DNA of 64,000 bases, taken from Apostichopus japonicus. Lineage: Eukaryota > Echinodermata > Holothuroidea > Aspidochirotida > Stichopodidae. Under the pieces are notes generated by a model. That model was given only the letters and a program-made list of their open reading frames with translations, ran no database searches and was not told the DNA's origin. Location of the stretch: contig NC_092565.1 of assembly GCF_037975245.1 (NCBI RefSeq), forward strand, positions 17,277,999 through 17,341,998, in the 5' to 3' direction. The translations under genes and the position numbers were made by a program. Within the stretch, counting starts at the first letter, position 1; each line of letters starts with the position of its first letter. Of this stretch, positions 40,891 through 64,000 are shown one piece after another.

Positions 40891-42195
40891 TTAGACTGTA
40901 TGCTCTTACATATAGTGTATTTTCATAGAGATTAACATTGCCCTATATTGTGGTACTGCACATGCATATATATTTCAATGGTAAAGCACTTACAGTGCAC
41001 ACTAAGTCAAGGGGGGGGGGGGGGGGGTTAACTATAACTAGGCTACTTGTTCTATCTGGGTTGCTACACAGGGTCTTAACTGGAAAAAGGATGGCTCAGA
41101 GGGTAATTAAGTGTGAAGCCTCCTTGTGATGAAAGGACATATGTGTATTGTTACTGAGATGTTACTGAGATTGAGATAGGAAAGAGATAGGATGGTCAAA
41201 TGTGTTCCATCCGAATTTGATTTGTCGAATAGGTCAGTAAATCTTTCGTCATGTCATGCATCTAGTATAATCCTAGCAGTACTCTTTCGAAGTTTTACTA
41301 TTCTGTCATAGCTTACCTTTAATGGGACAGGTGCAAGAAAGCTAACTTTAATCGTGTTCCATTCCGGAGATGTTAGGGTGCAGTATTTGTGTGATATCAT
41401 AATCTGAAGTGAATTCTTTAACTTCCCGTTTACATTGCTTTTCATCATTTCGATATGAGCTTAAACAGGTTTTCGAATGAAATCAATGCCGGGTGATACC
41501 GGGAAACCAGTAGAATCTGCACTGAAATGTTCATATACTTATCATGACAATTAACAACTGATCACAGGCAGTAAATAAAATACATAATTATGCATTACAG
41601 TTATTTAGCCGCTCAAGTGACCCGATGATGTCATAGCTGGTCATGCTGTAGGCGGTATAGTCTTGCCGTAAATACCTATAGGCCTATATTCAAATGAAAA
41701 AAAGATTTTTTTATGAGGGTTCTTCATTACATTAATCACTTGATAGTAAAGTCAAATTCTGTTACCACGAAATGAATTATTTTCCAACCGGGTACATAAT
41801 CATTTCAGTTTTAAAGAAAAACAACAGTTGTAATGTTGGTTTAGCCCATTTATGACATCGCGGATGATTTCGCAATGCATTCATCATATTAGAGTGCATA
41901 AAACTGTAACTTATTTTATACTTTAAAAGCGAAATTATCTATACGATGCTGGGAATGGGATGGAGGAGGGGATCGAGGGGCAGGGGACAATGAGTTCCGT
42001 TTCTTAAGTATGTCATAAATCTCAGTCTTTATGTTAGCCGGCAGGTTTGCTCGTTTTGTGAACTGTGGAGAGTGATATGACGGTATAGTAGGGTACTTTT
42101 CAGGATATTTATGTGGAAAGACAAAATTGTAAACATCGTCGTTGTGCAAATATCATCGCTCCGTAACGTCACTTTACGTAACAAGGGTTACTTTG

Positions 42196-45100
42196 TTACT
42201 CGTTGCATTCAATGATGGTTCCGTCCATCTTATGCATACTCAACGCCAATACAATTGAAGCGATGTTGGTGAATATTATGATGATGAAGATGAGTGTAAA
42301 TGATCCAGATATATCGAGAACAGCACCTATGAAGAACAAAGAAAGAAAAAAACAGAACAGTTAAAAGTAGGAATAACAAGTATTAGAATTAAAACTTTAC
42401 ATACGATGACACATTCCCTGGGTAGGTATAATACCGAAACCTACTTCATCCACAGTCACCCGTTCCTATGCACAACAGTCATAATTCAATAAAATGATGA
42501 GTTCAAAGCTAGACAAACTAATAACGATGTTTTAATACCTATACGGTTTCTACATTAACTTGGGACATAACTCCTCATGCACACCTACAATGAATAAGCA
42601 AACGACCAGAATAGAAAACAGAAAGAAAAGGGAAAAAAAATAATAGATATCATTATTGCAAATTTGATCGTTCGCTTCATTCTTCCTCTTCAGAGGTTAC
42701 CATTATCGTTCCTCCTGGAGGCTCTCACTGGCCCACCTCCCCCTTCCCCGCCACTCCCACGATACAATCACCCTCAAGTCATAAGAATTTGGGCAGCTCT
42801 TGCTGAAATTATCCCACCAAGCTGCATCAATGCACCGCTAAAGAAGTAACTTATTGCTACCCCCTGCCTCATGTGTACCTTGCAGACATATCTTGGTAGT
42901 ACACCACTTAGGGCACAGTCCGCGTAAGCCAGTGAAAATCCACAGAAAAGTGACGAAACTGCAAGTGTCCAAAAATCTTGGAAGAAAATGTATCCTGATA
43001 AAGATACAGTGCAAATAGTAGCTGGAATCACTGAACAAGTTATAGAGTTCATTCGATTGCTCCAAAAAACGAACAAGACCACAATTTTACCAAAGACACC
43101 TCCAATGCCTCCGAATACTGATAGAAGTACCGCAACATCTGATGGTAGGCCCAAGGATTTTCCAAATGGAACTAAGAAAACCGCCCAAACAACGAAGGAG
43201 TAACTAAGTAATGAATGTATGATAATGTAAAGTGCAAATATCGGATGCCTTGTTGCAGGTTCAATGCTACATAAAATGAGAAGGTTGCCCATTCTTGTCT
43301 CGTCGGTCTTGTCCTCAGGGCCGGCTGATTCGTCCTTTCGGTTTGCAGACTCAGATGACTCATGGGCGTGATCATAATCGACGGACTGAGGAGGCGGTCT
43401 CTTTGATTTCATTAATACCCCGGATATCATACAATTCCATACTAGTGCGCCCATAATCAAGTAAGACCCGGATAGTCCGTATAATATTCTTCTCGTAGTT
43501 GCTCGAGCAGGACTGGGATGGCTGTTATCCCTAAGTATTGAAACAGCTCCCTCACAGAGTAGGCCACAGGGAAGGTCTCCTTATCAAAGTGTTCCAAATA
43601 TATCATATACAGCGACAAATATAAAAGTCCTCCCCCGACAGCTGTAAATTAAAACAAATTTTGTTTTTCATAATTCGGAGAAACTTTTGAAGCACTAGAG
43701 AACAGTAAACTACACAAAGGTCGATCCATGATTTATCGAATAATATGATGGCTGATGGAGGGAGTGATTTAAGGGGCGGGGGGGGGGGGCATGTAGAACA
43801 GTATATATCGAAATGACTGCAGCATACTGGTGTGATAATCAATCAACGGTGAAGAGTAAGAAACGCTAACAAGTGAAGCGTAGCAATAACTATAATTATA
43901 TGTGCATGTGTTTTTCAAAGTTATATGTTTGAAGCATGGTTCCTTACACCAGGACTTCGATCGGTTGTGATCATGACAAACTTACTGCATGTAGTATGCC
44001 AGATTCTCTACACGTTATCGTCACCATTACATCAACCCAATAATTTCGATGTTTGGAAACTTCAGTGCAATAGTGAACCTTCTAGCTATGTGTTTCTTTA
44101 ATAAAACCCATGCAGGGCGTAGCTAGACTTTTGTTCAGGTAAGGATCAACTCGGGATGCCAAACGAGGCCAACTCGGGCGCATTTCGGGAGCCACCGTTT
44201 TTCGGCCCAACTCGGGCTCCGTTTCGGGAGACCCCGTTTATTAATTTTTTATTGTTTATATTTTAAAGCGGGCACCCGTTTTTCACACGAGGTCGTCACC
44301 GATGTTTCCTTTCGATGATAGCAAAAAAAAGTTAACTAATTAATTACACATGTACATGTCGCCCTATGTGAATTTAACTCATTCCACAACACTAAGGGCG
44401 ACATTGGCAATTTAATGTAAATACGTCACACTGGACCATTGTCAGGACTTCAGAATGGGTGATATTTATAATACTCCTTCTGCAAAATACATGTAGCAAG
44501 GAATTTAATTAACTAATAAATAACACATATACATGTGGCCTGTTTTTTTTCGGGAGCTTTGCTTTTGATATGTTTAAGAGTCTTATCAAATCCCACAACC
44601 TTTTTTCCATTTTGGATATTCCGAGACAGTACATTAGTTCCTCATTACATGGTACACAGACTGCAGAATAGAATGTATACACGTACACGTTAGTAACAGA
44701 AGTGATAGTACCAAAGTGTAAATTTCAGTAACTTTAAAATCTGAACGAATAGGATTTGCAGAACGCGTGATTAAAGTAATCGGTACAAAAGCTATTACGT
44801 AATAGGCTATTCATATTGACCGAACCTTAGATATAACGACTTCAAATTTGGTCATACCGAACTATATATTTCAGTGATTTTCTACTGTAGTTCTATGTAT
44901 ACTGAAGTGCAATACTATGGGACAACACTGATAATTAAGTCAATATTTACAGTAAAGCAAATATCATCACTCTTTAGAAGGAGTGAAAGTGCACTCTAAA
45001 TAAGAAAGTATATTCACTCTTTGTTAAGAGAGAAAAACTTTCACTCTAAATTACGTCACCAACCCAATCAGCTAAGAGTGAAATTGGTATAGTTTTCACT

Positions 45101-47868
45101 CCAAGGGAATTTAGAGAGTATGACACTAACTATAAGAGACTCCAGTATATCATTAATTATTTTATTTAATGTTGCCGGTAAAACACAGTTTAAACAAGGT
45201 TCTTGGTTCTTGGTTATAACATCACAATATGCAGTAGTTACTATTTATTTTTCAACCCATCTTTGTATACAGTGTTTGCCATGTCAGTTTATACTATGTC
45301 TATGTATATTGAAGTGCAATACTATGGGACAACACTGATAATTAACTCATTATTAACAGTAAAGTAAATATCATCACTCTTTAGAAGGAGTGAAAGTGCA
45401 CTCTAAATAAGAAAGTATATTCACTCTTTGATAAGAGTAAAAAACTTTCACTCTAAATTACGTCACCAACTCCATCAAGCTAAGAGATTTTATTTAATGT
45501 TGCCGGTAAAACACAGTTTAAACAAGGTTATTGGTTCTTGGTTATAACATTATAATATGCAGCAGTTACTATAAGGTTTTTTTAACCCGTCTTTGTATAC
45601 AGTGTTTGCCATGTCAGTCAAGATATTATCATTACCTTAATAAATTCTTTTTTCATTCTCTTCGATTTAAAAAAAATATTGTTATGTTCATGCTGAAAGA
45701 TGATAGCTTATGTTGTATACAGTAATTTTAGCATTAATCATTGCATTTACCAGTAAAACATACTTCCAACAAGGTTCTGAGTGATTGGTTGATACTTTAT
45801 AACATGCAGCAATTACTATACGTTGTTTAACCCGTCTTTGTATACAGCGTTTGCCATGTCAGTCAAGATATTATCATTACCGTAATAAATTCTCTTTTCT
45901 GTATTTTCGATTTTATTTGATATCGTTATATTTTTGCTGGTATATGATAGCTCATTTTGTGTATAATTTTCGTGGCTAATAAAAGAAAATCAGTCAACGT
46001 TATACCATATGCATATTATAAGCAGTTACCATATTCTGCATAACTTTTTTTTACCATTAGATGAGGCAAGGCATACCGAAGGGCTCTACATGCGCCAAGT
46101 TGAGTCCCGGGAATAATTATGTCACCAGGACTACATTAGTTCATGGTGTGTAAAGGGGCATATATGAGAATAAAATTCCTTTATCTCAAATTTCCTGGAC
46201 CTCCTTTACTGACCCTAGTTCTGTGGCCGTATAACCCCACTTGACCTCCCTACTCGTCTGGAAATATTCGACTACACATTTAAATAATGCGTGGCAGCAA
46301 TTTAGTTGCATTAAACACTTCAATGTACCTCTATATATATTGTTTGGTTGGACTATATATATATACGCTACAAGTATCACATGTTAGATTATGTGTAAGT
46401 TTAAAACGTAAATGAGTTTTACCATACGATTGTACAACACAAACACAGAGAAATAAACTCATATACTGAAGCAGTTCATTAATTAATTAATTACGTTGGT
46501 TAACTATTCAATATGTTTTCAGTTGGCTATTTGCTAAAATGATCACTTGTTATAACCAGTGAGGTTTTGTGTTAAACCCTTTATGACGATAAATTCGTGT
46601 AACCATAACATTGCACAACATATACCGATATATGTGATTATGCGTAGAATAATTAAATACAATTAACTCCAACATTTTTGCATTATACTATAATGCTAAA
46701 AGTATCACATGTTATAGTAAGGTTCTGTGCGGAAAGTTTTATGACATGTGATTTGTAGGCCTACAACAGATACCGATACGCAAACTCATGCACTTAAGAA
46801 GCGCCAAATTACATTAACCATATTCAGTATTTTGACTATAGGTCAATAATGTTATTCACACGGACATTACCTGAGATTCCAGTGAAAACGAAAAGCTGAT
46901 AAATAGTTTTACCAAGCAATCCATTGAGCACGAATCCAAGACCAAACAGAAAGCCACCGGTTGTACCCACACTCCTGTTTTGGATTCCCTTGAGTAGAGG
47001 GGCAGAAATTCCAGCTGCAAAAGAATGATCCCGCATGAATAAGACATCAATTGAGGGGAGTGGATTGTCAGTGTTGTGAAAAATCAAAGCCGCACGCATC
47101 CCACTGCCTCTCTTCATTTGTCACCCCCACCCCAGGGCCCATGCAATTGGGGCCGATGTCAAGGACCGAAAGAAGTAACCAGTCATCCGCTGCAGCTCGC
47201 AGTTGACCGAAGCCTGCGAAGCGGCCATGATTTATAATTACATATGCAGCCAGTAGGCAAATAAAATAAGGAGCAAATTCAAAGAAATCTTTTCCTAAGC
47301 AAAGACAACCTGCATGAGAGTGCCATATCCGTTCGTCTTGAGGTGCCAAAATAAAAAGTGCTAAACAATGCACGTTTCACCTTGGTTGCATGTGAATTCT
47401 CCTTCGGGGGCTCATTTCTATTGTGGCACCGGGCCCTGTTGGTCCTTACTACGTCATTAGTTACTACCCTCTGCAGTATGTAGCAAATAATACTTCAAGA
47501 AAGGATTGAAACATATAAAAACAGTTAAGCAAACATGCACAGATCTGGCTAAGTTAGTTTTCCTTGATTACGTTAACACAGTTTTATTTTTGAGTTATAG
47601 GTATAAACCATTATTTGTCAAAAATGTTGTGATTTGATTCGATAATGTGATAGGAAAATTACGTGAGCTTACCGACGATGAATGCAATTGATGCTTGGAA
47701 TGTAAATACCCATCCAACATAAATATTAGAGGTGTTGTACACTATCACAAGATCATCAAACAATACCCCGAAAGCTTTGAACGTTCCGCTCTGAAAGAAA
47801 ACGACTAAAATTCCCGAAAATAATATGTCAATTGAAACGAACAGTTTTTCCAATGTGTTCTTCGCCAT
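42196..47868 (-). pseudogene. SLC16/monocarboxylate-transporter-like gene, copy 2, probably broken
   Basis: Exons are 47868-47673 (MAKNTLEKLFVSIDILF, then FFQSGTFKAFGVLFDD), 47014-46871 (GISAPLLKGIQNRSVGTT then GFLFGLGFVLNGLLG), 43641-42803 and 42326-42196 (AVLDISGSF and a C-terminal HKMDGTIIECNE). Phases of the first junctions agree (1 and 1). Membrane segments are of the 12-helix MCT/SLC16 pattern. Two lesions are present: a 5-bp insertion at 43479-43483 that shifts exon 3 after EQLREEY, and an 11-bp deletion at 42803/42804 that removes the exon 3 splice donor that copy 1 still has. Exons 1, 2 and 4 are intact here, whereas copy 1 is damaged in exons 1 and 2. A functional product would need unusual splicing. 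Element B lies about 135 bp upstream of the ATG. Confidence 0.8.
44895..45490. repeat. About 408-bp tandem duplication specific to copy 2
   Basis: GAAGTGCAATACTATGGGAC recurs at an offset of about 408 bp (near 44902 and 45310), followed both times by the module ATCATCACTCTTTAGAAGGA ... ATTCACTCTTTG ... TTTCACTCTAAATTACGTCA. Copy 1 has the module once (34380-34475). The ACTC/GAGT words are partly inverted, suggesting that the module itself is a decayed short palindromic element. Confidence 0.6.
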
Positions 47869-48003
47869 TTTCGTCACAGAAACCAGTCACCGGAGAAACA
47901 GTGTGATGGCGTTGTTATAGAAGCCACGGTCTGATAGTGACTCGTTGTGGCTGCGAAACTTTCGATGAAGCAAAACAACAAAATTAATAGAAGTGCAGGC
48001 ACG

Positions 48004-49355
48004 CAGGGGCGTATCCAGGGGGGGCGCAACAGGCGCGCGCCCCCCTATTGGCCGTCACCAAAAAAAAAAAAAAGTTTAGCAAAAAAAAAAAAAATTGATG
48101 ACGACCTTGATGTGAGATGTTGGTGATCGCTCAACCCCCCCCCCCCCCTCCCGTATGCTTTATTTTTTGTTTGCCAAAAAAAGGTTCTGGCGAAGTTCGG
48201 CGGCATAATAGTTTTAGAAACATAGATGGTAATTGTGTTGGTATTATCACTATAAACACTAAATGACATGCCAGCCATACTAAATTGTGCATTTTGTGTC
48301 CATGTGTCCATGTGTCACTGGAAATGTTGCTTATTATTAAGGTCGAAAAATGAATCACATATGGCCATGGGCGGCGATCTTGGGTGGAGGGGGGATATAT
48401 CCCCCATGAAAATGGGTGGAGGGGATGTAATGCACCATATCCCCCCCCCCCCCACCAAATGCCAGTGATAAGAATATTTTCATGCCTACATTTATGCATC
48501 TTCGTTAATGTACGGCTCTTTTTTAGCTTCATTTCTCGCCTACCATAAACGCAGTGCGATCTTTTCAAATAAAGTGTCTTTATAAAGCAAAAATAGTTGA
48601 CTGTAGGCTTCATTGGCCCTATAACAACAAAATGTATTATTGCGCCCACGGTATTGATATAGTACATATATGCACCCTCATAGTATTCATATAGGCCCTA
48701 TAGTAGGCCTACACACGTACATGTTCCCTCGAACAGCTGAGAATCTCATGTAACCAGGGTAATGCTGAATACACGTTTCACCTGGATGCCCTAGCAATCG
48801 GTACCTAGGAATGTAACTATGTGTAATTGTGTATTGCATGTGTATAGGCCTATAATAGCCTGTATGAGGCCATTTTCTTCATCGAATAATATAACAGAGC
48901 TCTCGAACATTCTAACGTTGCGCCTGAAACAAGATTGACAGGGGCAATTTTCCCAAAATAACACCCGAAATTAAAAAAAAAAGTATTTTGGATCCTGATT
49001 ATGAGATATTTCGGACATGACATCCCTATTTTAAAGTTGGGTATATGCCGCTTGGAAACCTCGGGAAGTGCCGTTTCCGGCCATCTAGAGGGTTTGTTAA
49101 TCCCAATTTTTTTTTTTACGCTTCGCGCCAACTCATGGTGGCGCTACGCTTAGATAGTCAAAAAGGTCATATCCCCCCCCCCCCCCCACTCGGAAGTACG
49201 GATCGCCGCCCATGCATATGACACCATTTTGCATTTCAGCCCTTCTTTGAAAGCAAAAATTGTACACCCCTCCCCTTAGACCCATCCCCCAGGACGGCGA
49301 TCATTCATGCCTGGCGCCCCCCCCCCCCTATTGGAAAATCCTGGATACGCCCCTG
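48004..49355. mobile_element. hAT-like element B (1.35 kb), inverted copy of element A
   Basis: Ends are CAGGGGCGTATCCAGG and CCTGGATACGCCCCTG. The direct repeat AGGCACG flanks it (47997-48003 and 49356-49362). The paralogue near 37222-37240 lacks it. The sequence is nearly identical to the reverse complement of 26254-27587, including the nested A2 element, whose right-hand hairpin cassette is at about 49120-49155 here. The longest frame (48667-48131, minus) parallels the one in element A and has no known domain. Confidence 0.8.
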
Positions 49356-49473
49356 AGGCACGAAACTGAAAAAAAAAAACAATGGTTCCTTCAATTGTAT
49401 CAAAATTTGTAGAAAAAACAGTGGAAATTCGTGCAAGGATGTTGATATTTTACAGATGTAGATATACTGTCTA

Positions 49474-49860
49474 CACTGTTAAAAATATCTGTCAGTTTAC
49501 AGACTTTTTTAACATAAATTTCCGGTTTTTTCCCATTAACCAAAAATTACTGTATTTTTACAAACAGTTTGTATTGCTACAAAAACAAAATGTAATATAA
49601 CATATATTTTCTGTTTATTTAGAAAACAACTATTTTCTATTTTTTTAACAAAATTTGACTGCAATCATTAATATTTTTACAGAAGTAACTGTAAATTAAA
49701 GTAACAGTTGAAAAATCCTGTTATTTTACAACTTATATCTGTTTTATTGCAATAACATGATCGCACTGTTTTTTTTTTACCATCAATTTGTATTTACTAC
49801 GACAAAAAAATGTTTTTAAACAGAAACTTTTCATTTTTACGGAATAAACAAATATTTAGT
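49474..49860. repeat. Left subterminal region with TTTACAG/CTGTAAA motifs
   Basis: Within about 390 bp of the left end, TTTACAG or CTGTAAA-like words recur in both orientations (for example near 49494, 49677, 49690 and 49730). They match the motif repeated in the right-end array. In plant CACTA elements, short subterminal repeats are transposase or TnpA binding sites; a similar role here is inferred. Confidence 0.55.
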
Positions 49861-50339
49861 ATTTCAATTAGCAACACTATAGGGTCCTTTTATAGACCAA
49901 TTCATCGTATGTTTCTTCAAGCACAATCTGACTGAACAATATATGGGATGCGCTCATCTCGGGTGTGTGGTCCAGGGACCCGCTTCGGGCCCTAGGTTAG
50001 TCAATGTGTTTTCGGGACCTTTGGGCGATGCCCATGCACGGAAGCTCTGGGGTTTAAAAAAATTGTGATCATTATTAACTGTCTTCAATTGGCATTGAAT
50101 GCGCATTAAATAGACGGAAAAAAATCTATTTAATTTGGGCATTTTTATTTCAAATAATTTAAATTTGAGTAAATGCCGATCGATTTCGTGATACAGCGAG
50201 CATGTGGGTGAGACAGATTGATGTTGTTAAGGGTTGCATTGGAGTGAAAAACAACGTACAGCGTGTATGGCACACCTAATGCAGTCCAGTGGTTTCGCAA
50301 TGGCTCGGTGACCTAAGGTCACGGTTTCCACCTGGGTTC

Positions 50340-50575
50340 ACGAGTGTAACATATGCATATTAACGTTTCCCGCCAAAATAACAGTCCACGGCCTGACGTA
50401 TCAGTGCACAAGAAACTTTTTCAGTTATACGTACAATACAACAGCGCGCCGAACTCCGACCACGTACGTACGTACACACTATTACTGCTTGCGTCCAGCA
50501 TGCAGTACACAACACTAGCTGCCTTTTCACTGATGACGCAGGAGAATTTTTCAATATTCGACTGAGGTGGGTGTA
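50340..50575 (+). promoter_or_regulatory. Candidate promoter of the transposase gene, with E2F-type site
   Basis: This is a locally CpG-richer segment. TTTCCCGCCAAAA at 50366 onward is a canonical E2F site. CTGACGTATCAG near 50393 and TGATGACGCAGG near 50532 are CRE/ATF-like. A possible donor (CTGAG/GTGGGTG near 50567) and an acceptor (AATTGGCAG near 51333) would give a spliced 5' untranslated region. An E2F site would tie expression to S phase. Promoter function is inferred. Confidence 0.4.
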
Positions 50576-51383
50576 GTGGAAGTTCATTCAAGTTTTGTTA
50601 GCAAATAAGTTGGTAGAAACATTGACTATTCATCAATAACAAATTCTTAGAAGGCTTATTCTTGCCGTTTCGGAAAATCTGTTAAATGTTTTTGTATAAC
50701 GGATGCGATAACTGAGCTTTATAGTTATAGGCTAGGCCGAATAGCGAAGGGCCTAGCATAACGTTAGGCATCACTGGCTAACGGTGGTCTTAGTCCGGAG
50801 CGATATTGATGAAATAAAATAATAGCCTAGGCCTATAGGCTTGGCCCATATATATATAATTTAAAAACTTAGGTTTTTGCTATTGCCTGTGCGGCTGTAG
50901 CCTGGGCTATTAATATTAATAGGCTACTTTTAACCGAATTGTTGATTAAGTTTAAGCCAACATTACTCATTAGCTTTGAAAACTTATGATACCCAACAAA
51001 GCTTAGGGCCTAACAGTAATGCTACAGTAGTTTTACTGTGTGAGAACCAGTATGAGTTGGACTGAACCTGTCCACACTACCAGTACCACAGTCTCTCAAT
51101 CATTTTGACACAACCATTTGCATTGATTATGCATCTAGACAAAATCATGTGTACAAAAAGAAGCAAGTAGGCAAGATCTTTCCTATATCTTGTACTGTAG
51201 CTGTACTCAGTACATGTTCAACTTCAAACATATAAAAATTGTGTAAATTCACTGTAGCTTTAACAACCGAAGTTAGTGCAAATGAAATTGGTGTGGGTTT
51301 ATAAGTAGGTTATTCAAACTTTTCCAAATTGGCAGGGTTTTCCTACTCGTATTCTCATAGTTCTGTACATCGTGAGACTAAAA

Positions 51384-54104
51384 ATGTTTGTTGGACTTTG
51401 CAACATTTGCAAGGTAACAACACGTTCAGTGAGTGAGTATGTGGCTCATGGACGGCGCCATAGAAATCAAGCCAATTCTCAATTTCAGTGCTGTTTTCAA
51501 GGATGCAAATACATATTTTCAACTTTTACAGCACTGAAAGTTCATATAACAAGGAAGCATCGTAACCAGAGACATGTAGAGCAGTCAAACAGATTTCATT
51601 CTGTTAATGTACCACTGAAGTGTGCTATTGCATACTGTAAGAAAGAATGCTCTGATTTGCATGCATTTTTAAGTCATCTCAAAAGTCACATGAATAATGG
51701 TCAGACAGTTGAATGCCCGTATGTTTCATGCAAGAGAAGGTACCACAAAAAGGCAACATTTTGTGTTCATTTGTCTCGTTGCCACAGAAATTGGTGTGCA
51801 AAACGTGTGAAAAATGCTCACAAAAGTTTCAGATTTGATGCTGTAATTTCAGAAACAGCAAATAATTATGATGTAGAAACTGGCAATGCTAATAAGCCCA
51901 CTACTGCAGAAGAAAGTTTGGATATGGAATTTGGGGAAACTGAACATGACAATGTCATAGAAGTTGAGAGTAATTCTGATCAGTCAATAGGGGAATTTTT
52001 GAAAAGTTTTGCATTATTTCTACTTAAGCTGCAAGGGAAACAATTAGTCCCAGAATCAACCGTACAAATTATTGTAGAGGAACTAAGAAACATACATGAC
52101 ATTTGCCTAGAATCTCTTAAAGTTAGGCTTACAGCAAAATTAAGGGCCGAAAACATTTGTAATGACCGTATTCATTCATTATTAGATGACCTTAACTTGG
52201 GAAATGAGTGGGATGTTGCTTTGGACAGTAAGAAGGGAGAACTGCGCTCAAAACATAGTAGAAAAGAGTACTTTAAGTCACTGAATTTTGTTTCCCCAGA
52301 AGCTGTTCCCCTTGGGAGGGATATTTCAGGAAAAATGCATTACTGTCATTATGTTCCCATCTTGCAGACAATTAAAGTTCTCATTGATAATGACTTGATT
52401 CCAATAAAATCAGACAGGAGAGCCAACAACATGCAGCTACCAGTGTTTACAGATATAACAGATGGGAAAATTTTCAAAGAAAATACACTTTTTGGAAGTG
52501 AGGAAAATGCATTGTCGGTTATTTTATTCCAAGATGCCTTTGAAGTAGTGAATCCACTTGGATCTGCCAAAAAGAAACATAAAATATTGGCTGTGTATTT
52601 CACTCTGGGAAACATTCCTCCTCAGTATAGGTCCCAGGTAGAGTCATTGCAACTTGCACTTCTTTGTAGAGAGGTTGATTTCAAGAAGTATGGACAAGAA
52701 AAAGTATTTAAAAGGCTATTAAGAGACTTGAAATTACTAGAAGAAACTGGTGTACAGGTCAAAGGTGGGCAAATTCGGAAAGGTTCATTGGCATGCATAC
52801 TAGGAGATAATTTAGGCTCACACACTATTGGCGGATTTGTTGAAAGCTTTTCATCTAAACATTATTGTAGGTATTGCTTACTGAGTTCAGCTGAATTTCA
52901 GTCAGGTGAGCCATATGCTCTGGGAAAGTGCAGAAGTCCCACCGAATATGACAGATGTGTAGAACATCTCCAACAGTCTGGTGAAGATAGCTTTGAGGGT
53001 ATTAAATTTAACTCCCTCTTCAATAATTTAAATTACTTCCATGTCTGTAATCCTGGCCTGCCACCTTGCTTGGGCCATGACCTTTTTGAAGGGGTAGTGG
53101 ATTATGATTTGAAACTCTATATCGATTACTGGGTTAATCAGAGACATTGGTTTACGTACCAAGACTTAAACAGAAAGTTAGAACTGTTTAAGTTCACTGG
53201 TAGTGACATCAATAACAAGCCTGCTCAGATAAATTCAAATAAAAGCAGACTTGGTGGAAATGCAGTTGAGAACTGGTGTTTGCTTAAACTTCTCCCAATT
53301 TTGGTGGGCCAGCAAATTTTGGATAAATCTGACAATGTTTGGAAACAATTTCTGCGTTTAAGAGAGATTGTTCAGCTTGTTTGTGCTCCTCAAATATCAT
53401 GGGATGAAATTGTTTATCTGAAGGTGTTAATAGAAGAGTACCATGAGGAAAGAAAACAAATCTTTCCTGATGTGAAGCTTAGACCAAAACATCACTTTCT
53501 TTGTCATTATCCAGAGTTGACAGTTAAGTTTGGCCCTTTAATCAGAGTGTGGACACTGAGGTTTGAAAGCAAACACTCTTACTTCAAACGGTGTGCTAGG
53601 AATTGCCATAACTTTGTTAATGTAACACATACGCTGTCAGAAAGACATCAGCAGCTGCAGGCATATAATAGTGCAGGGAGTATGTTTCCTGAAAAAAATT
53701 TCATTGAAAAAGGTGAGCAACTAAATCCTGAGGTTTTTAGTCCTGAAATTAGGGCTTCCCTGCAGTCAAAAGAGTTACAGGTTGATTCAGCCACAGTGAG
53801 TAACAAATTAAAGGTCTATGGTACTCAGTACAGTGCAGGTTTGTTTGTGGCATGCAAATGTACAGATTCAGTCTTGCAATTTGGCTGTATTCTGTTGACT
53901 CTTTTATGTAACAATGATGCATTTCTTGTTGTTAAACTGCATAATGCTACCCTTCTTGAGGAACTAGGTGTGTACTTGCTGCAACCATCAAATGATATAG
54001 ACTGTCTGAAGGTTTCAGAACTTTGTGACTATTATCCATTGTCAGCTTATCCAGTTCAAGGAAGACTCCTGCTTCCACTGAAGCATAATTGTTTCCACTC
54101 ATGA
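51384..54104 (+). CDS. CACTA-like DDE transposase with four C2H2 zinc fingers (906 aa)
   Basis: The single open frame starts at an ATG with A at -3; an upstream in-frame GTG was not used. Residues 6-135 hold four C2H2 fingers: CNIC..H-RRH, CCFQGC..HITRKH, CAIAYC..HLKSH and CPYVSC..HLSRCH, likely for binding element ends. The core resembles Tnp2/CACTA-type transposases of animals: FQDAFEVVNPLGSAKKKHK (acidic D384), YFTLGNIPPQYRS, LGDNLGSHTIGGF (D475), HYCRYC knuckle (about 493-498), GHDLFEGVVDYDL (D566), LRPKHHFLCHYPEL and RVWTLRFESKHSYFKR (E728). D384 or D475, D566 and E728 are candidate DDE residues; which acidic residues form the triad needs alignment. No frameshift or stop interrupts it. 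AATAAA follows at 54301, about 200 bp after the stop. It would cut and paste the surrounding 13.9-kb element. Confidence 0.85.
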   Translation: MFVGLCNICKVTTRSVSEYVAHGRRHRNQANSQFQCCFQGCKYIFSTFTALKVHITRKHRNQRHVEQSNRFHSVNVPLKCAIAYCKKECSDLHAFLSHLKSHMNNGQTVECPYVSCKRRYHKKATFCVHLSRCHRNWCAKRVKNAHKSFRFDAVISETANNYDVETGNANKPTTAEESLDMEFGETEHDNVIEVESNSDQSIGEFLKSFALFLLKLQGKQLVPESTVQIIVEELRNIHDICLESLKVRLTAKLRAENICNDRIHSLLDDLNLGNEWDVALDSKKGELRSKHSRKEYFKSLNFVSPEAVPLGRDISGKMHYCHYVPILQTIKVLIDNDLIPIKSDRRANNMQLPVFTDITDGKIFKENTLFGSEENALSVILFQDAFEVVNPLGSAKKKHKILAVYFTLGNIPPQYRSQVESLQLALLCREVDFKKYGQEKVFKRLLRDLKLLEETGVQVKGGQIRKGSLACILGDNLGSHTIGGFVESFSSKHYCRYCLLSSAEFQSGEPYALGKCRSPTEYDRCVEHLQQSGEDSFEGIKFNSLFNNLNYFHVCNPGLPPCLGHDLFEGVVDYDLKLYIDYWVNQRHWFTYQDLNRKLELFKFTGSDINNKPAQINSNKSRLGGNAVENWCLLKLLPILVGQQILDKSDNVWKQFLRLREIVQLVCAPQISWDEIVYLKVLIEEYHEERKQIFPDVKLRPKHHFLCHYPELTVKFGPLIRVWTLRFESKHSYFKRCARNCHNFVNVTHTLSERHQQLQAYNSAGSMFPEKNFIEKGEQLNPEVFSPEIRASLQSKELQVDSATVSNKLKVYGTQYSAGLFVACKCTDSVLQFGCILLTLLCNNDAFLVVKLHNATLLEELGVYLLQPSNDIDCLKVSELCDYYPLSAYPVQGRLLLPLKHNCFHS

Positions 54105-54300
54105 CTTTCTCAACAATGATGATGGTACTTGGCCATGTTATGGATGTATGTGCATGCATTTACCTTGCCTCATGTGTTCAATATGTCACATGTTTACACA
54201 GGGTCTAATACCGTACATTCAGCAACTATCGTTTTAAGTTGTGTATGTTTATTGCATGTAAGGCATATATGCAGTTTCCCCAACAATGCTTCAAACATCA

Positions 54301-54306
54301 AATAAA
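54301..54306 (+). terminator. Polyadenylation signal of the transposase gene
   Basis: AATAAA lies 197 bp after the transposase stop codon and before the SAM-domain gene, so the two genes appear to be separate transcripts. Confidence 0.5.
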
Positions 54307-54779
54307 CCTATCAAATATCAATGCTGGTGCTTCTCTGAGAAATTTTAGAGCATTTGGATGATTCACAACAGAAATGTTGCACCTAGCCTCAATTCAACAA
54401 TTTATTCATTTAGTTCTGTTTTCATGTGAGTGAACACTCACTCCTCACTTGGCCTATCATAGTCCACAAATTCAAATTTTGGGACTGCATTTGCTATTTA
54501 ATACATATTTATTCAGGCTTTATAATGTACTGAGTAGTTATCTTTCCTTGAACAAAGATCTACATTCTTGATAGTGCAGGAAAACAAAGTAATCTGAGCT
54601 AAAGTAAAGGAATAGTCAATGCAGTGGTCATTATTTATTGCTTGAGCCATTGTGTAAAAATAGTATAGTAGTATTTGTCAGTTTGAGGTGTCAACTCAAT
54701 AGTGACAGACGTTCACATTAACAAAATCAGTCAGCTATATGTTTCTTGCTGTTGGCAGAGTGGTTTGTGTTGATTCAAA

Positions 54780-57327
54780 ATGGAACTGTCAGATACATCT
54801 TCAGATGATACTGTCCTTCTTGGTCCAATTGAGAGTGCTGTGAGTGATGTCTTTCCACTACTGCCCACCTACAAGATTAAGGAGGTGCTAGAACTGCTCA
54901 TAAGAGCAGGAGTTGAAAGTGTTGCAGATTTAAAGTATGTTACAGAAGAGGATCTCCACAATTTGAAACCAATTCAGCGGAGAAAGCTTTTGAAAGCTTG
55001 GTCTACAAGGGTTGAAGGTACTGTATCGTCCAGACTCCAGTATTTTGTACATTACTTGTAGTAGGCCAATTTAGTGTGCACAGCACAGTACTTGCAGAGT
55101 GAGGAGGCAATATGTGACCTGGAAACTATCGTGTTTACCAAAAGGACAAAACAATTAGTACCAAAAGTCATTACAGTTCTGAAATCAAGAGTTTGTGACT
55201 AGATCATGCTTGAACAGCCTACATGTAATCTTGCAAGTTTATCTGCTTAGTTGAGGTAATCATTCATGGACAGTTGCTTAACAGAAACTTTGCAGTGTAA
55301 ATATGTACAAGACTCTAAACTTGTAATTAATAAACATTCCAGTGCTTTTATGTCCACACATTCTCATCCCTGTTTTCAGATAGACAGTGTTTTCGTTTTG
55401 CCAATGGCATACTGTACACTACTTGTATTCTGTATCGATTTCAATTGCAGTTGTTTAGAGAAATGAGGAAATGCAAGTTTGTTGGCTTGTAGCTAATGCT
55501 TTCATATCATTGTAAGACTGGTTATGTACATATGTGGCAACAAGAGGCTACACTAGTTCTTACATATTTCTTGGAAATTTAATGTTTTTATTCATTGAAA
55601 ACATTTCTGTTAGTTTTAGAGGTAGTCCTCGCCCCATTTCATGAAGAGTTACGCTCAGTCTTAGTTTGATTTATTGCTAACTTATGTTCTACATATCAAA
55701 CTTGACTGAGCATAACTCTTTGTGAAACAAGGCCCTGATGTTCAATTTTTCCTTTTTTTGCCAGATACTACCCCAAGTGAACTAAATCACCAACTGGAGT
55801 TGGGAATGGAAGATTTTCAACTAGTCGGATCAGTTGCTTCTTCAGAGTCATCCAGCTCAAGTCCAGGAACTCCTACCTCACTAAAGAAGCACTGGGTGGA
55901 AACTTTTACAGTCCAGTGGAACAAAATGCCTAAGAACTTAAGTGATTCATTAAAGAAATGTGCAAGGCCATCACCAAGAGACAGAAGGGAAATGATACGA
56001 ATAATATGTGATGACATCATGAAGAAAAATCGCAATCCGGGCCGTAAGAATCTTGCCATTATTTCAAAAACAATTGTTGATTCTTACCCAGCAAGCTTTA
56101 GAGATGACATAGGCGGTGAAGTTATTGGAGATGGCTTTGAATCTGTACTTAAGCAAATGGAAAACAGAATCAACAACCTGAGGCGGACTGAAACATATCT
56201 GCCAGGAACGTCTTCATTGACCAGCACATCAGATGATGAGTCTTCAGAACAGAAGCCTAAGCGAGCAAAAAAACGAGACTCTTATGGTTGTCAGAACTGG
56301 CAACCAAAAGGGTTGCCAGAGAGGGAAGACGAAACATCTCAAAAAAGGAGAACCCTTGAACTAAAGGAAATGTATGAAAATGAAGATAAGTGGGATGAAG
56401 ACATCATTCAGATGAACATGAAACTGTTGTATTTCACTATCCGCACAATGATCAATACAAACAGCATAACCCTCATAGGGATAATAGAAGAATACCCATT
56501 TCTCCTGGAAAGCATTGGTATGATGAGCCACTTTCATGAATTGGTTGGTATTGAACTGATGCCTACTCTTTCTAAATCTTTAGATACCAAAGGTCAGTCT
56601 GTTATGCACTATTTGAGGAAAGTTGCTACCAAAAAGCCAGCTTTAAAAGATGTTTTTGATGCCATAGAAGTTGCCAGAGCAGAAACAAACGATCTTACTC
56701 CTGAGATGCCTGGATTAATCTGGCTACTTACTTGCTACTTTGGGGAGAAAGTAGATACCCTGTTGTACCTATCAAAGGTGAGTATTTTTATAAAGTGAAC
56801 TGATATTTTTTTTTCTATTTCATTTATTTGCAAAGGTTGTCATGCTGGTAAATTACTTGGCAAATATTATAGCAAGATAAGGTTGAAGACTACAGTAAAA
56901 AGTGCAATTTCACCCTGGTAAAGTTGAACTAACCATAGATTAGTTGAAAGCCTAATTTTAAGCAAGGGATGGCAAAGTGGGGATTTTAAGTACAATTTCA
57001 GTGTCACATTGTTATAGTCTCTGTAGTGTTATGTTGATCAGCCTTTCAGGACACCTTACATAGAGTTGCAGATCAGCCCAATGACAACAACCTGACTATG
57101 CCACGGGTGCAGAATATGTTCTTAGATCATGCCAAAAGCAATGTGTGTACTCGAGGTGTAATGCCACATGTGTTCTTTTAAGTGTGTTTATACAGACTTG
57201 GTCAAAATGTGTGCTGTATATGGCACAATAATTAAACATTATTTAGTAATGAGTAGTCATGTAGACTGCCATCATGATGGCTACTGAAGTGAACTTTGAC
57301 CTACACTAAGGTGACAATTAACTGCTA

Positions 57328-57366
<39 letters not shown>

Positions 57367-60031
57367 CTGCCATATAATATCCTAACTAGGGCCCTGTTCC
57401 ATACAGAGTTTTTCTTTGTCTTGAGTGTGATTTAAAGTTAAACACAGACTATGAATCAAATCTAAGATTGTGGGTTACTCTTTGTAGAATGGGGCCCAGA
57501 TCAAATTGTTATCCAATTTCTGCCACCAGACAACTTTGTATAAGTTTCAGGTTTTAAAATACAAGTTGCACATATTTTACTTTCCCAGGAGACAAGCAGT
57601 GATCAGGAGGCTGTTTCTGGCTTGAACTCTCCATCACCCTGTATTGTTGTTTTGGGTAAGCTTCTTGAATGTACATTTTGGGTGTTTCTGTTTACAGAGC
57701 TTTGTTATTTTCATCAACAATATTTAAGCACATCAGATTTAAAGTATCCCTTGGATCCTGCTCAACATTTTGTTTGAATACTACTGATTGTTTTACCAAG
57801 CCTGTCTTTTCCTACCATTGATCCCTTGCTAGGCTCAGACTATAGTAGGAATTCCTGTTTCTTAATTCAAATGCAAAGTCTTCCTTTCCAAATTGTGCAA
57901 TAGAGGTATATACTTATCAAAAGTGTTCTAAATGTGACATGGGAACAAATGTACTAGCTTTCAGTGTGGTAGATGAGATACTGAGAAGCAGTTTGCCAAG
58001 ATTTAGTATAATGTGATATTTAGATGAAAGAGAAGATTCATTTATTGTAGTTACATCTTCTGGCTATGATGGGAAGTGGCTCTAAATATGCCACAAACCA
58101 TTGTCAAAATTTACGGATCAGTCTGGCGGCAGTAATTTAGACTCAGTTTGGTGTAATGGCATAAGCAATCATCCAACTCTTACTTGGAAGCATCAGCTAA
58201 ATCCTTCAAATCTCTCATTCAGGTTGGTTCAGAACGTTAATGTCCAGTAGTAAAGGTAAAAATGCAACAGAAACATTGTTTTGAGATTAAAAGAATGACG
58301 TGTACATATTTATGAATTAGTATAGAGGGTTTGTAGTCAGAATGGGGTAATTGCATTTGGCCTTTCAAGTTATGCATAAGGTTTGCATAGAATCCAAGAT
58401 GCAAGGCAATAGATAGATGACCAATGCTCTTGTTTGGTGTGATACCTATTCTTACAGAGGCAGGGCAGAGAATTTTTTTCTTCCAATGTGGGGGAGGGGT
58501 TGTCCACTGATTTAGGCTTTGCATCATTCAGTGAAAAATCAGTGGGTTCTGCTTGCAATTCACTTTTGATCTTGTCATTGCAGTTTCTAGGTTAAGTGTT
58601 TAATGGACATACCTTTTTTAAGGTCCCTAAAAAAGTTACTACTCTTGAGAATGTTACATGATAATCCTTCAGTAAAAGAGTGGAAACATATTCTTAGTCC
58701 GTAACAGCACTAAAAAAAGTCAATTTCGGAAAATAATGACAAAGTGAAACTTGGATTGACATTTTTATCTTTGTTTGAATATTGATATCACAGGAACCAA
58801 ACTGTTGGCCGGGCGGAAGTATATGATCGCAGTTGACAAGGTAGTTGTCAATCATCTTATTGCTGATTTTCAGAGTGCCCTTGCCTACCTCTTTGCCACA
58901 TACTATGTTTTAAACATTCAGTATCCTGCAGACAGCTGTGTGACATTGGAGTTCATCCAGAGGTAAGTGTTAATGGAATATGAATGAATATTTGTACAGC
59001 AGTGGTTATAGCTGGGATTGGAGTTGTAACTCATGGTAGTGTTTTCCTTGTATAGTGTGTTTTCTACCAACACTTGGGAAAGACTTGAACCAGTGTGAAA
59101 TTCAGTTGAGTAGTTACACAAGTAAGTCATAATTTGTCTGTCTAGAGAGAAGATCATGATCCCAACTTAGAATACCATTGAAGGTACTGTTACATGAAAT
59201 TTGGTCATAGTCTAACTTAACAATTATTTACCTCAGTTTAGATGAACTGCTGCAGTAGGTGTTTAGTGTTAAATAGTAACAGCATCATTAATTTGAAGAT
59301 CGTAGAATATTTATGCAGTGACATTATTTGTAGAGCCCTAGTCCCATCAACATTGGGATTAAACTTGCAACAAAATGCACAGTTGAAAAGGTCGATCCTG
59401 ATCGTTGCTCCAAGAAGATCAGTGTCCTATTTCCTTTCAACTACAATCCACCTGCATTTTGTCGATTTTGAAGTTGATTCTTGTGTTTCATCGGTGGACT
59501 TTGTTTAAAATTTACTGCTTGTAGAATTGTATAGATGGGACCCAGGCTTTAATCCTTCAAACTGTACATTCCAAATTGATTTCATGGACAGTCTTCTTGT
59601 GGAATTGACTGTTATAAACAACAACTGTTCTCAAAAAAAAAGTAATAAAAGAATTGTGAATAAGGAAATATGCTTCAAAATGTTTTGACCACAATCATTA
59701 TGACTTTCATAATTATAAATACAAACTAATATGAAAGCAGTGTGAGTAGCCATTTAATTTATACCTGAAACAGTGAAGTGAATAATTAATGTGCAACAAA
59801 TTTTCAGAAGTATCATGTTTTAAAGACATGGTTTTCTACTGGTCAAGTGTCAAGGTCAACGATGAAAATATTAATTCCCACCAAAAGTAACAAAAATCAA
59901 CTCATTTTTTTTTTGGCAGGTGCTTTGTTGGAATCAACCCACCCACATCAGGAAAAAGTAGGAAATCCTCAGCCATAAATCCCAAAGTGTTGTCTCTTTT
60001 GGGACATATCAAGGATGAGTCAACAAAGTAA
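54780..60031 (+). CDS. SAM-domain protein resembling SAMD3-like proteins (532 aa, five exons)
   Basis: Exons are 54780-55017, 55765-56777, 57589-57655, 58794-58962 and 59920-60031. The junction phases 1, 0, 1, 2 all match, GT-AG is present throughout, and there are 533 codons including the stop. The start ATG has a strong context (CAAAATGGA). Residues about 20-78 form a SAM-like helical domain: YKIKEVLELLIRAGVESV, then LKYVTEEDLHNLKPIQRRKLL. A Ser-rich linker follows (SSESSSSSPGTPTS), then a basic helical region (RPSPRDRREMIRIICDDI), KPKRAKKRDSYG as a possible nuclear signal, and a central helical domain (WDEDIIQMNMKLLYF to EKVDTLLYLSK). The C-terminal block LLAGRKYMIAVDKVVV, FQSALAYLFATYYVLNIQYP, LEFIQRCFVGINPP is typical of multi-copy fish and invertebrate proteins annotated SAMD3-like. 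It lies inside the transposon in the same orientation, 676 bp after the transposase. A role as second transposition factor or regulator is inferred; captured cargo is the alternative. Confidence 0.85.
55629..55737. mobile_element. Short MITE-like palindrome in intron 1 of the SAM-domain gene
   Basis: The two halves are imperfect inverted repeats: CATGAAGAGTTACGCTCAGT and ATCAAACTTGACTGAGCATA/ACTCTTTGTG, flanked by GCCCCATTTCA and its near-inverse GAAACAAGGCCC. It ends about 27 bp before the exon 2 acceptor. A related element lies at 57389-57497. Confidence 0.6.
57310..57365. repeat. (AT)n microsatellite
   Basis: An almost pure TA dinucleotide run of about 40 bp lies in intron 2 of the SAM-domain gene. 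Confidence 0.9.
57389..57497. mobile_element. 109-bp MITE-like element in intron 2 of the SAM-domain gene
   Basis: GGGCCCTGTTCCATACAGAG at the left is inverted relative to ACTCTTTGTAGAATGGGGCC at the right, with few mismatches. It has no coding capacity. It resembles the element at 55629-55737 in its end sequence, so two members of one small family sit in the same gene. Confidence 0.65.
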
Positions 60032-62300
60032 TAAAAACATCAAACAGTGTAGTATGGTGATCAGTGGACTTATTTCGAGTTTAGTTACTACAGGAACCAT
60101 TTAGAAACGTTTGTTTTTTGTTTTTATTCAACTCATTCAAAATCAAGTTAAGATGGTTACTTCTGGCTGGAACCTCAATGTCGCCTTTAGCCACTCTTAG
60201 TGTTTCCTTCATGTATATAGACATTCAGCCAATATGTAAGGAACGTTCAGGTGGATGATGTTTTTATGAACTACGATCAGTACTGAGTACACAGACATGA
60301 AATAATCTGCACACCAATCTCCATATTCTGTGCCTCTAAAGCAGAATGGTTTCAGATGAAATTTTGTTTTAGATAATTAAAGAGAACTGAAATCTATGCA
60401 TTTTCATGGGCTTTGCATCACATTTTCTACCTAAGGTGGACTTGAAGCAAGCAGGAGATGAGACTGTAGAGTTTGTTTATGGAATTCTATTCATTCATGT
60501 TGGCATGTTATTCAGACATATAAAGTATTGATTAATATGAAGTTCTTTTACTAACACTATACTGTTACACCTGCCTGCTAAAAGTTCACTTTTGATAGTA
60601 AATGTGACACCTTCTATGACCTTACATTTCAAATTGCCCAAAGAATTGACTGCAAATTTGTGCCCTCTATCCTCTTCCTAGAGTGCTATTCAATTGAAGA
60701 AAAATTTCATCCAGTGGATTTCCTGATCATAGCATGCATTAAGGCAGTAGCCACGAAAGGAAACTCTCTAATAAGTATAAATGTTTACAAGGACAATGGG
60801 TTCATTTTAATACCAGTGCTCATGCACATTGAACCATTCCTTAAATGGTGAAATGTTTGCCATTTTTCGTTTTCAGTGGTGAGTTTATACTATGTGATAT
60901 TATTTAAACTACTTCATTTAAAAAAAAGTGTGATTACAGTGTGTAGTGCCACAAAACTATACTAGCGTATGCTTGTCTATTACTGTGTGTAGTGTAGGGT
61001 CTATAGGAATTGCACTGCCTATGCATTAAGACCAAGTTTTCCCTTTCTACATCCCCTACCCCAGTGAAATACTCCATCAAATAATTATTAATGTACTTGT
61101 GAGAATATCCATTTCTGGCTGGAATTTATATTTTAGTCTTGGTATTCATAGACATCTGGTTTGGAATTGACAGGGCCTGAAGTTGATATTGGCATGCACC
61201 AATTTTTTCAACATTGAAAAAGAGGTTTACTGTTTCAGTTTTGGACTTTAAGTTACTTCCTTGTTGATTTACTAAGTTCTGTGTTTTTAGTTTCCATTTT
61301 GACATTTGCATTGCAAAAATGATTGCATGTTCATGATATCATGGCTCAGCTTTATATGAAAATGTTTGAAAGTTGTGTAATAATAATTAGAAAGTTTGAA
61401 GCTTATAACGTCAATTAACCCTTAAGCCTACCATGTAATAAGGTTTTGGCTAATGATTGTTTTCCATTTGAAATGCCCACTTTGGGATAGTTTCAGGGTG
61501 TTTGTCGTCCCAAACTGGGGTCTTCCACTTCATGGGTTGAAAAATAATGTTTGAAACTGATTTACAGAAGATGATCATATAGTTGTTCTTGAATAGTTGG
61601 TCATAAGCCACATGCCTTGACCAACTCTATGGAGAATTTTTAATACTGTGAGGAGGCTGACATAATATAGTATATGATTATAAATACATTACAAGGATAT
61701 TATTGTATGAAAAATCTTACTTTAGCTTAATATTCGGTGAAGAGCTTTTTGCAGTATATGCCATTTAGAAAGTTTATAATTGCAGTCAGTTTGTAAAATT
61801 AAGGGTCACATAGTTTGTGGTTTTTTTGGGCAACTTAATTGGCCCTAACCAAAGATAGCAACAAATGAAGTAGCTTTCAATGTATTGCTTTTGGTGTAAG
61901 GTGATCTTACCACAGCTTGAGAACAGTTGCAAAACCTGTATCTCTTATTGTTCCTATACAGACTTTTGTAACTGGTTTGTAATTGCCTTGGCCTGAAGTT
62001 TGTGATATCAGTCACCAGTCTTTTCTCAAATCTTGAAAAGTAGAATTATTGTTTCAGTGTTGAAGTTTAAGTTCTCTACTTGTTGTTTTATAATTGAGTT
62101 TTTGTGTTTCTAGTATCTACTTAAGAAGCTTTTAGTTTTAGTAAAGTGGTGAAAAGTGATAGGTTAAAAGCACCTTTGTATGTGCATGTTTTTGGGGAAG
62201 ACCTCACTCCAAGATGAATGAAGAAGTTGTGTAAATAAAGGGTGAAAATAAACATGAGCATTTCAACGTACTTCTACCGTATATTTTTGGCGTATTCCTT
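60032..62300. other. Non-coding stretch within the 13.9-kb element
   Basis: No further gene is supported between the SAM-domain gene and the right-end array. Two diverged direct repeats occur near 61160-61290 and 61970-62120, sharing GGCCTGAAGTT, TGTTTCAGT and TTTGTGTTT(C)TAGT in order. The many stop codons and lack of splice-flanked frames argue against an additional product. Confidence 0.5.
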
Positions 62301-62579
62301 AAGTATGTACTTTCTTTTTGTAGAAACCTTGCCGTAAACTAAGACAGATAAAACCCATCAATTTATTTTAATTGTCAATATCAAATTTTCACACTTATGT
62401 TTCTTTTTTATGGAATTGATACACCATTAGTAATTCACATAAAAAAATTGTTAAAGGACAGATTTGGTAGACAAACACGTTAAAAGCGTCTGTAAAAAAA
62501 ACATAAATTTGAATTTTATCAGAAGATTTAAGCAAATTGACTGAACGATTAACATCAAAATCCTGTAAAAAAGACAGAA

Positions 62580-63060
62580 TTTAGGAGTAAAACCGTCTGT
62601 AAAAAAACAGACAAAATTGTAATTTTATCAGACGATTTGGTAAATTAACATCGAAAACTTGTAAAAAGACAGAATTTAGAAGTAAAACCGTCTGTAAAAA
62701 AACAGACAAAAATTGTAATTTTATCAGACGATTTGGTAAATTAACATCGAAAACTTGTAAAAAGACAGAATTTAGAAGTAAAACCGTCTGTAAAAAAACA
62801 GACAAAAATTGTAATTTTATCAGACGATTTGGTAAATTAACATCGAAAACTTGTAAAAAGACAGAATTTAAAAGTAAAACCGTCTGTAAAAAAACAGACA
62901 AAAATTGTAATTTTATCAGACGATTTGGTAAATTAACATCGAAAACTTGTAAAAAGACAGAATTTAAAAGTAAAACCGTCTGTAAAAACACAGACAAAAA
63001 TTGTAATTTTATCAGACGATTTGGCAAATTAACATCGAAAACTTGTAAAAAGACAGAATT
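62580..63060. repeat. Right-end 96-bp subterminal array
   Basis: Five units of 95-96 bp (GTCTGT starts at 62595, 62690, 62786, 62882 and 62978). Each holds a hairpin (GTCTGT, A6-7, ACAGAC), then TTTTATCAGACGATTTGG, TTAACATCGAAAACTTGT and AAAAAGACAGAATTTA. A partial unit follows at 63084, and a less regular one precedes at about 62490. Because 96 is divisible by three, the minus strand stays open and gives a spurious 32-residue repeat. The position near the transposon end and the CTGTAAA content fit transposase-binding repeats. Confidence 0.85.
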
Positions 63061-63287
63061 TGGTAGTAAAACACAATTAAACTGTCTGTAAACAAACAGG
63101 AATAAATTGTAATTTTATCAGAAGAATTCAGTTAAATATACATGAGAACAATGCTAAATAAAACAGAATTTTTATGTTATTCTATTTAACAGATTATTCT
63201 TGTGAAAATTTTAACTGGAAAACTATGTAAAAAGAAAACATTATTTTCCAGTTAATTCCTTTTTACAGATTGTCTGTAAAAATAACA

Positions 63288-63324
63288 GGAAACGATTGGA
63301 AACTTTTTTTCCAATCGTTTTCTG
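63288..63324. repeat. Hairpin next to the right end of the 13.9-kb element
   Basis: GAAAACGATTGGAAA-type arms (AACGATTGGAAA and TTTCCAATCGTT, perfect 12 bp) enclose a 7-base loop of C and T. It lies about 30 bp inside the right terminus. Confidence 0.7.
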
Positions 63325-64000
63325 TTAATTTACAGAAATTTTTTTAACAGTGTAGATATTAAACATTTTATTCAGCAATTTCAGCGGATGACAAGAAAAA
63401 AGTTGTCAAATGTCAACAGTATGGGAATAAACAAAGCCGTTTACTTGCACACTTCATCAATAGCGCCGTCCCTTCTCAAAGTATCGCAGAAGGTATATTA
63501 ACAGCTCTATCATGTTGGTGCTGTCTTATCTCTCCCTGTCCCATCCTGCTCTAACCGGTCCCCTCCCCCAACACCACTACACTTCATGTTAACGTTTATT
63601 AGTTAGCGTTGGTAGTCTCATTGTTGTTGCAACTTCCGTTCATTGATCATATTCAAACTTTAGACAGCTATACTTTCATTCTCTCTTGATTATTATTCTC
63701 AGTGGGAGAATATAATGATATGGGGGTGTATTTGAGTAGGAAGGTTGGAAGTGGGTGGGGGGGGGGGTTCTCTGGCTCGCATAGGGCTAGTAAGGTTAGT
63801 AATGTAGAACAAGTAAAGTTAATACAACAATGCATGCAACATGTTTATAGGATATAGCTCACATGGTTGGTTAAATTAAGCCATATTTTTGCCCATAATT
63901 TTATAGCCTGATAGATGTAGCTAGTCAAATTTATATATTAGTGTAAAACCAGACTACTTTTAAATTGTCTGATAGAATTGCATAAGTGACTGTGAGATTT

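Follow-up and report, generated by a model that had tools for sequence, protein, structure and literature searches.

A probable full-length CACTA-type DNA transposon carrying two intact genes in the sea cucumber Apostichopus japonicus

Introduction

Full-length CACTA elements contain a transposase gene and a second open reading frame (ORF) (PMC4158355), and the Rim CACTA elements of plants average 14.1 kb in size (PMC1636069). The maize proteins TNPA and TNPD are each required, with TNPD stabilizing TNPA on the DNA (PMC1636069). The animal TRC elements include SmTRC1 of Schistosoma and its relatives in Aedes and Tribolium; the same work, from 2006, described relatives of CACTA in animals, with duplications of 2 bp, transposases of the Transposase_21 family and, in Schistosoma, paralogous empty sites, as well as a 9.2-kb CACTA-related element of Aedes with 2-bp direct repeats (PMC1636069). 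A CACTA element of Hydra has CCC ends and a 2-bp duplication (PMC4298943). A two-gene layout has been reported for the RAG-like transposons (PMC7204232). Here, we analyzed a 64,000-nucleotide stretch of the Apostichopus japonicus genome (contig NC_092565.1; hereafter the window, with positions counted from its first letter), in which an insert at 49474..63352 carries a zinc-finger DDE transposase gene and a second, multi-exon gene. We conclude with good confidence that this insert is a full-length, young, and probably autonomous DNA transposon of the CACTA type (CMC group).

Results

Element borders and the paralogous empty site

An earlier, sequence-only reading of the window had proposed an insert in one copy of a segmental duplication. 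Both junctions were located, and the insert proved to be defined to the base. The left junction reads ...CTGTCTA followed directly by CACTGTTAAAAA, with 49474 as the first base of the element, and the right junction reads TTTTTAACAGTG followed directly by TAGATATT, with 63352 as the last. The features of this part of the window are as follows.

49474..63352, + strand: whole element, 13,879 bp (from the junctions and the paralogous empty site)
49472..49473, no strand: left target-site duplication, TA (from the sequence and the empty-site alignment)
63353..63354, no strand: right target-site duplication, TA (from the sequence and the empty-site alignment)
49474..49485, + strand: left terminal inverted repeat, CACTGTTAAAAA
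63341..63352, - strand: right terminal inverted repeat, CACTGTTAAAAA
37337..37338, no strand: paralogous empty site, single TA
28356..37884, + strand: unfilled copy of the segmental duplication
41193..63909, + strand: filled copy of the segmental duplication, containing the CACTA-type element and a 1.35-kb, presumably hAT-like element

When the insert was removed, 600 of the 676 aligned positions in the flanks were identical to the paralogous copy (89%), and the filled copy had one TA more than the empty site, exactly at the junction. The duplication of TA and the uninterrupted paralogue, which reads through a single TA at 37337-37338, had both been claimed before, and they are borne out by this alignment. 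The termini of the element are CACTG..CAGTG with a TA duplication. The ends had been described as exact inverted repeats, and they match at 12 of 12 bases and diverge thereafter. When 200,000 pairs of window positions were drawn at random, the longest exact match of the same inverted type was 10. With at most one mismatch allowed, the 12-mer CACTGTTAAAAA was found in the window at the two element ends only. Because two occurrences alone are unremarkable (mean of 1.15 in shuffled sequences; at least two in 27 of 100 shuffles), what counts about the inverted ends is that both sit, correctly oriented, precisely at the borders given by the empty site.

The segmental duplication itself is real: its pieces (28356-37884 versus 41193-49473 plus 63347-63909) are 83-90% identical. 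Since one of the two copies at this level of identity is empty, the element was inserted after the segmental duplication and into one copy only, unless a perfect excision is assumed.

Transposase

51384..54104, + strand: transposase, 906 residues, one exon; four C2H2 fingers, predicted RAG1-like catalytic core with D384/D475/E728, and a possible BAH-like C-terminal domain

The ORF at 51384-54104 comprises 906 codons in a single exon and is not interrupted by a stop. Together with the four C2H2 fingers and the invariant D-D-E triad described below, this agrees with the earlier description of an undamaged zinc-finger DDE transposase. Some 5.8 billion proteins were searched, yielding 383 relatives, and the best 120 of these were examined. 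The named ones among them come from a sea urchin, sea cucumbers, a feather star, a sea spider, a spider, a ribbon worm, and a killifish. One A. japonicus protein is 100% identical across 44% of the transposase, and two further relatives from this species show identities of 65% (P0004) and 41% (P0062). Pattern searches of viral and genome contig collections gave 25 and 42 matches, none of which was confirmed; these collections are animal-poor, and the result should not be read as absence.

The window protein was aligned with 29 relatives chosen among the best 120 (30 sequences in total). D384, D475, C495, C498, H704, H708, and E728 are invariant in all 30, and H703 is conserved in 29. Each position of the four N-terminal C2H2 fingers is conserved in 27 to 29 of the 30 rows, the exceptions being gaps apart from one L and one Q. 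The two catalytic aspartates are separated by 90 residues in the window protein, and the distance from the second aspartate to the glutamate is 249 to 256 residues across the aligned family. Two histidine columns are located exactly 25 and 20 residues upstream of the glutamate in 30/30 sequences. The motifs C495-x2-C498 and H703/H704/H708 correspond to C(2)C and H(3-4)H of the CACTA/Mirage/Chapaev/Transib clade, a pattern common to EnSpm, Mirage, Chapaev, Transib, and RAG1 (PMC12730594).

The structure model of the transposase predicts a RAG1-like fold, and the nearest solved structures are RAG1 and then Transib. In the PDB profile search, the best 60 of the 135 matches were chiefly zinc-finger proteins and did not include RAG1. 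The C-terminal domain is possibly BAH-like according to the model; Pfam and PDB profile searches with 12 family members did not find sequence support for it. None of the best 120 relatives was long enough to be a fusion of the transposase with the product of the second gene, the longest having 963 residues.

The NCBI protein P0003 of A. japonicus, named Interferon-induced protein 44, is this transposase minus parts. This misannotation could mislead surveys of immune genes.

Second gene

54780..55017, + strand: exon 1 (putative SAM-like domain)
55765..56777, + strand: exon 2
57589..57655, + strand: exon 3
58794..58962, + strand: exon 4
59920..60031, + strand: exon 5, including the stop codon

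The second gene lies on the same strand as the transposase and starts 675 bp past it. As had been stated, it is an intact multi-exon gene: five exons joined across GT-AG introns give an open frame of 532 residues. The NCBI protein P0122 of A. japonicus has the same length as the product and differs from it at 5 residues (99% identity), and the species has two further relatives, P0123 (93%) and P0124 (55%). Relatives span several animal phyla, including fish, corals, and echinoderms, and nearly all the named ones are annotated as uncharacterized or hypothetical animal proteins. Four pattern matches in the animal-poor viral contig collection were not confirmed, which is likewise not evidence of absence.

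The N-terminus of the protein appears to be SAM-like. The model had no Foldseek match at E 0.001 or better against the PDB and viral proteins, and a profile search of the PDB gave four weak matches, none below E 0.14. A relative from Frankliniella fusca (P0141, 22% identity) is named DNA fragmentation factor subunit beta, and it shows a CIDE-N match (E 1.6e-5) at the position occupied by the SAM-like domain in other relatives. CIDE-N self-associates, as does SAM, hinting that the N-terminus of this family may serve assembly.

Subterminal repeats and remaining coding content

49474..49823, no strand: left subterminal region, dense in CTGT[AT][AT]-type motifs in both orientations
62490..63352, no strand: right subterminal region, dense in CTGT[AT][AT]-type motifs
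62548..63072, no strand: tandem array within the right subterminal region, 96-bp unit, 5.5 copies, 97% matches

The motif CTGTWWA, which is related to the inverted end (CTGTTAA), occurs in both orientations and is concentrated at the two ends of the element. The first 450 bp contain 6 copies (mean of 0.5 and maximum of 4 in 300 first-order Markov resamplings) and the last 930 bp contain 14 (mean 0.8, maximum 4), versus 13 copies in the 10.9-kb middle, where 10.2 were expected. The 96-bp array accounts for part of the excess at the right end; in the last 280 bp, outside the array, there are 7 copies (mean 0.3, maximum 3). The motif was picked post hoc, and these enrichment figures are descriptive.

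Two open frames within the 96-bp array (177 and 162 residues) were rejected as genes; the forward frame collects scattered Pfam names, which were set aside as artefacts of repeats and low complexity. Apart from these frames, the transposase, and exon 2 of the second gene, the insert contains no stop-to-stop frame of at least 100 residues that could represent a third gene.

Other features of the duplication and the window

In the filled copy of the duplication, a 1.35-kb element with the ends CAGGGGCGTATCCAGG is present at 48004-49355, 118 bp to the left of the 13.9-kb insert. Judging from these ends, we take it to be hAT-like. It has an apparent 7-8 bp duplication (AGGCACG), and the paralogue lacks it at the corresponding site near 37226-37229. 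Another copy, inverted and 95% identical to the first, is located at 26253-27588. Both copies of the duplication contain a likely major-facilitator-type transporter gene (32218-32952 and 42774-43580, both on the - strand); the frame of the first copy (32218-32952) only has a Pfam MFS_1 match (E 6.7e-9). Elsewhere in the window, an open frame at 16876-17286 (- strand) matches the death domain (PF00531, E 5.4e-6), a minisatellite at 19787-20548 (30-bp unit, 25 copies, 93% matches) is open in several frames, and a short array at 3345-3485 consists of CCTAACCC-type units with a telomere-like sequence.

Discussion

Here, we propose a mechanism for the element based on its borders and coding content. 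The intact coding capacity suggests that the element is autonomous. In a cut-and-paste reaction, the RAG1-like D-D-E transposase would cleave the CACTG ends and join them into a TA target, and this joining would duplicate the TA. The N-terminal zinc fingers, the SAM-like second protein, or both may bind the CTGTWWA-type repeats at the two ends, and the bound ends would then be assembled into a synaptic complex. By analogy, the second protein may be the counterpart of TnpA in plant En/Spm. SAM domains often self-associate, a property that would suit the bridging of site arrays. The possible BAH-like domain at the C-terminus of the transposase may contact chromatin.

An assembly mis-join or a chimeric scaffold in place of an insertion is extremely improbable, because a mis-join would not be expected to produce perfect inverted ends with a TA duplicated at either junction next to an uninterrupted, empty paralogue, and the encoded proteins recur in other records. 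An immobile relic or a domesticated locus is somewhat less far-fetched and still improbable: both coding regions are open, the catalytic residues are retained, the two ends match perfectly, and databases contain nearly identical proteins. A weightier question is whether the second gene came from the host by chance capture and has no working part in the element. The two genes have been seen together at this locus only, its named relatives nearly all bear no annotation beyond uncharacterized or hypothetical animal protein, and it has four introns, versus none in the transposase coding region. On the other side, the gene is intact and on the transposase strand, 675 bp beyond it and inside the borders set by the empty site; A. 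japonicus has relatives of both the second gene (P0123, P0124) and the transposase (P0004, P0062); and two ORFs are normal for CACTA elements (PMC4158355). We consider chance capture rather unlikely.

The assignment to CACTA, also proposed by the sequence-only reading, is supported by the termini, the TA duplication, the D-D-E triad together with C(2)C and H(3-4)H, the Transposase_21 matches among relatives, the two-gene layout, and the repeat-rich ends. Transposase_21 (PF02992) matches 9 of the 30 aligned transposases at E values up to 1 (best, 1.1e-6); this family is assigned to CACTA and DUF1258 to Mirage (PMC3985635). The Mirage-linked family (PF06869) was not among the best 25 of the 45 Pfam families obtained for the aligned transposases, and DUF4218 matched two of the 30, not including the window protein, with E values no better than 0.13, a result without weight. 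As in EnSpm/CACTA elements proper, a transposase and a second ORF (51384-54104 and 54780-60031) lie between inverted repeats (PMC4158355). Several observations would instead fit a transposase from another lineage of the CMCT (CACTA/Mirage/Chapaev/Transib) clade, whether Mirage, Transib/RAG-like, or one still without a name, in place of EnSpm/CACTA proper. The element ends in CACTG where plant elements have CACTA, and the duplication is TA versus the 3 bp of plant CACTA elements (PMC4158355); the animal TRC motif [LVI]-D-x-[LM]-H-x3-L-G (PMC1636069) is missing in 30/30 aligned transposases; and the window transposase itself has no match to Transposase_21 in Pfam. For Chapaev, duplications are generally 3- to 4-bp (PMC4079192), in contrast to the 2-bp TA found here. 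The catalytic fold of the transposase is predicted to be of the RAG1 type, with RAG1 as the closest solved structure among the listed matches and Transib as the next, as would be expected of a Transib/RAG-like enzyme; these listed matches include no solved CACTA transposase, and the lineages therefore cannot be told apart by similarity to RAG1. Target-site duplications of RAG and Transib are 5 bp, whereas the element has 2-bp TA, and the Pfam transposase matches of the relatives are to Transposase_21, the CACTA model. We judge an origin in another lineage the less probable reading.

With its clean borders and two intact genes, the element can serve as a reference copy for a family of transposases with 383 database matches, which often lack a Pfam transposase name. 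The second gene is a concrete candidate for the accessory protein of CACTA elements in animals, a protein that the SmTRC1 work of 2006 could not trace across species, and the predicted RAG1-like structure lies outside the RAG/Transib line. The intact gene pair makes direct activity testing in cultured cells possible. A bolder and tentative idea is that a widespread animal CACTA lineage is an obligate two-protein recombinase, in which a transposase with a RAG1 fold, zinc fingers, and a BAH domain acts with a conserved SAM protein that polymerizes on CTGTWWA arrays and synapses them. If true, such a pair would correspond in animals to TnpA/TnpD of plants and would parallel RAG1/RAG2 independently, and the patchily distributed SAM-like proteins that are annotated as "uncharacterized" in fish, corals, and echinoderms would be transposon parts.

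Comparison with known elements

Large animal elements of this type with clean borders had been called rare in the sequence-only reading, which overstated the case: the empty-site cases of Schistosoma and the 9.2-kb element of Aedes are published (PMC1636069). Among the titles and abstract openings of the best-ranked literature matches, we found no description of this element or of a SAM-domain partner of a transposase, and Repbase may already include the family. The element departs from the animal CACTA relatives of the 2006 work in its CACTG ends, the lack of the TRC motif, its size, and a second protein whose relatives span several phyla; the kind of element is known.

The element resembles plant CACTA (En/Spm) elements in its CAC..GTG inverted ends, D-D-E transposase, second ORF, and kinship to Transposase_21, which here appears in relatives of the transposase. 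Plant CACTA ends are rich in repeats bound by the accessory protein, and the ends of this element are also repeat-rich. Its size of 13.9 kb is within the plant CACTA range and ordinary for them. It differs from plant CACTA elements in the TA (2 bp) versus 3-bp duplication, in CACTG versus CACTA, and in having four C2H2 fingers at the N-terminus of the transposase, a second protein that is SAM-like, and a one-exon transposase coding region. With SmTRC1 and other TRC elements it shares the 2-bp duplication, which paralogous empty sites demonstrated for SmTRC1, a Transposase_21-type transposase, a second protein, and a tandem-repeat region (3' in SmTRC1) (PMC1636069). In contrast to CACTG, TRC ends begin with CCC, and SmTRC1 is about 4.5-4.7 kb long; its accessory proteins are described as having no detectable relatives (PMC1636069), whereas the second gene here has relatives in several phyla. 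The predicted catalytic core has the RAG1 fold, as in RAG1/RAG2, ProtoRAG, and Transib, and the zinc-binding C-C and H-H spacing is equivalent to that of RAG1. RAG/Transib-type elements have CAC ends, as does this element, and two genes per element are shared with the RAG-like transposons. Unlike RAG/Transib elements, it has a TA instead of a 5-bp duplication, a SAM-like partner instead of RAG2, and two genes in parallel rather than convergent orientation.
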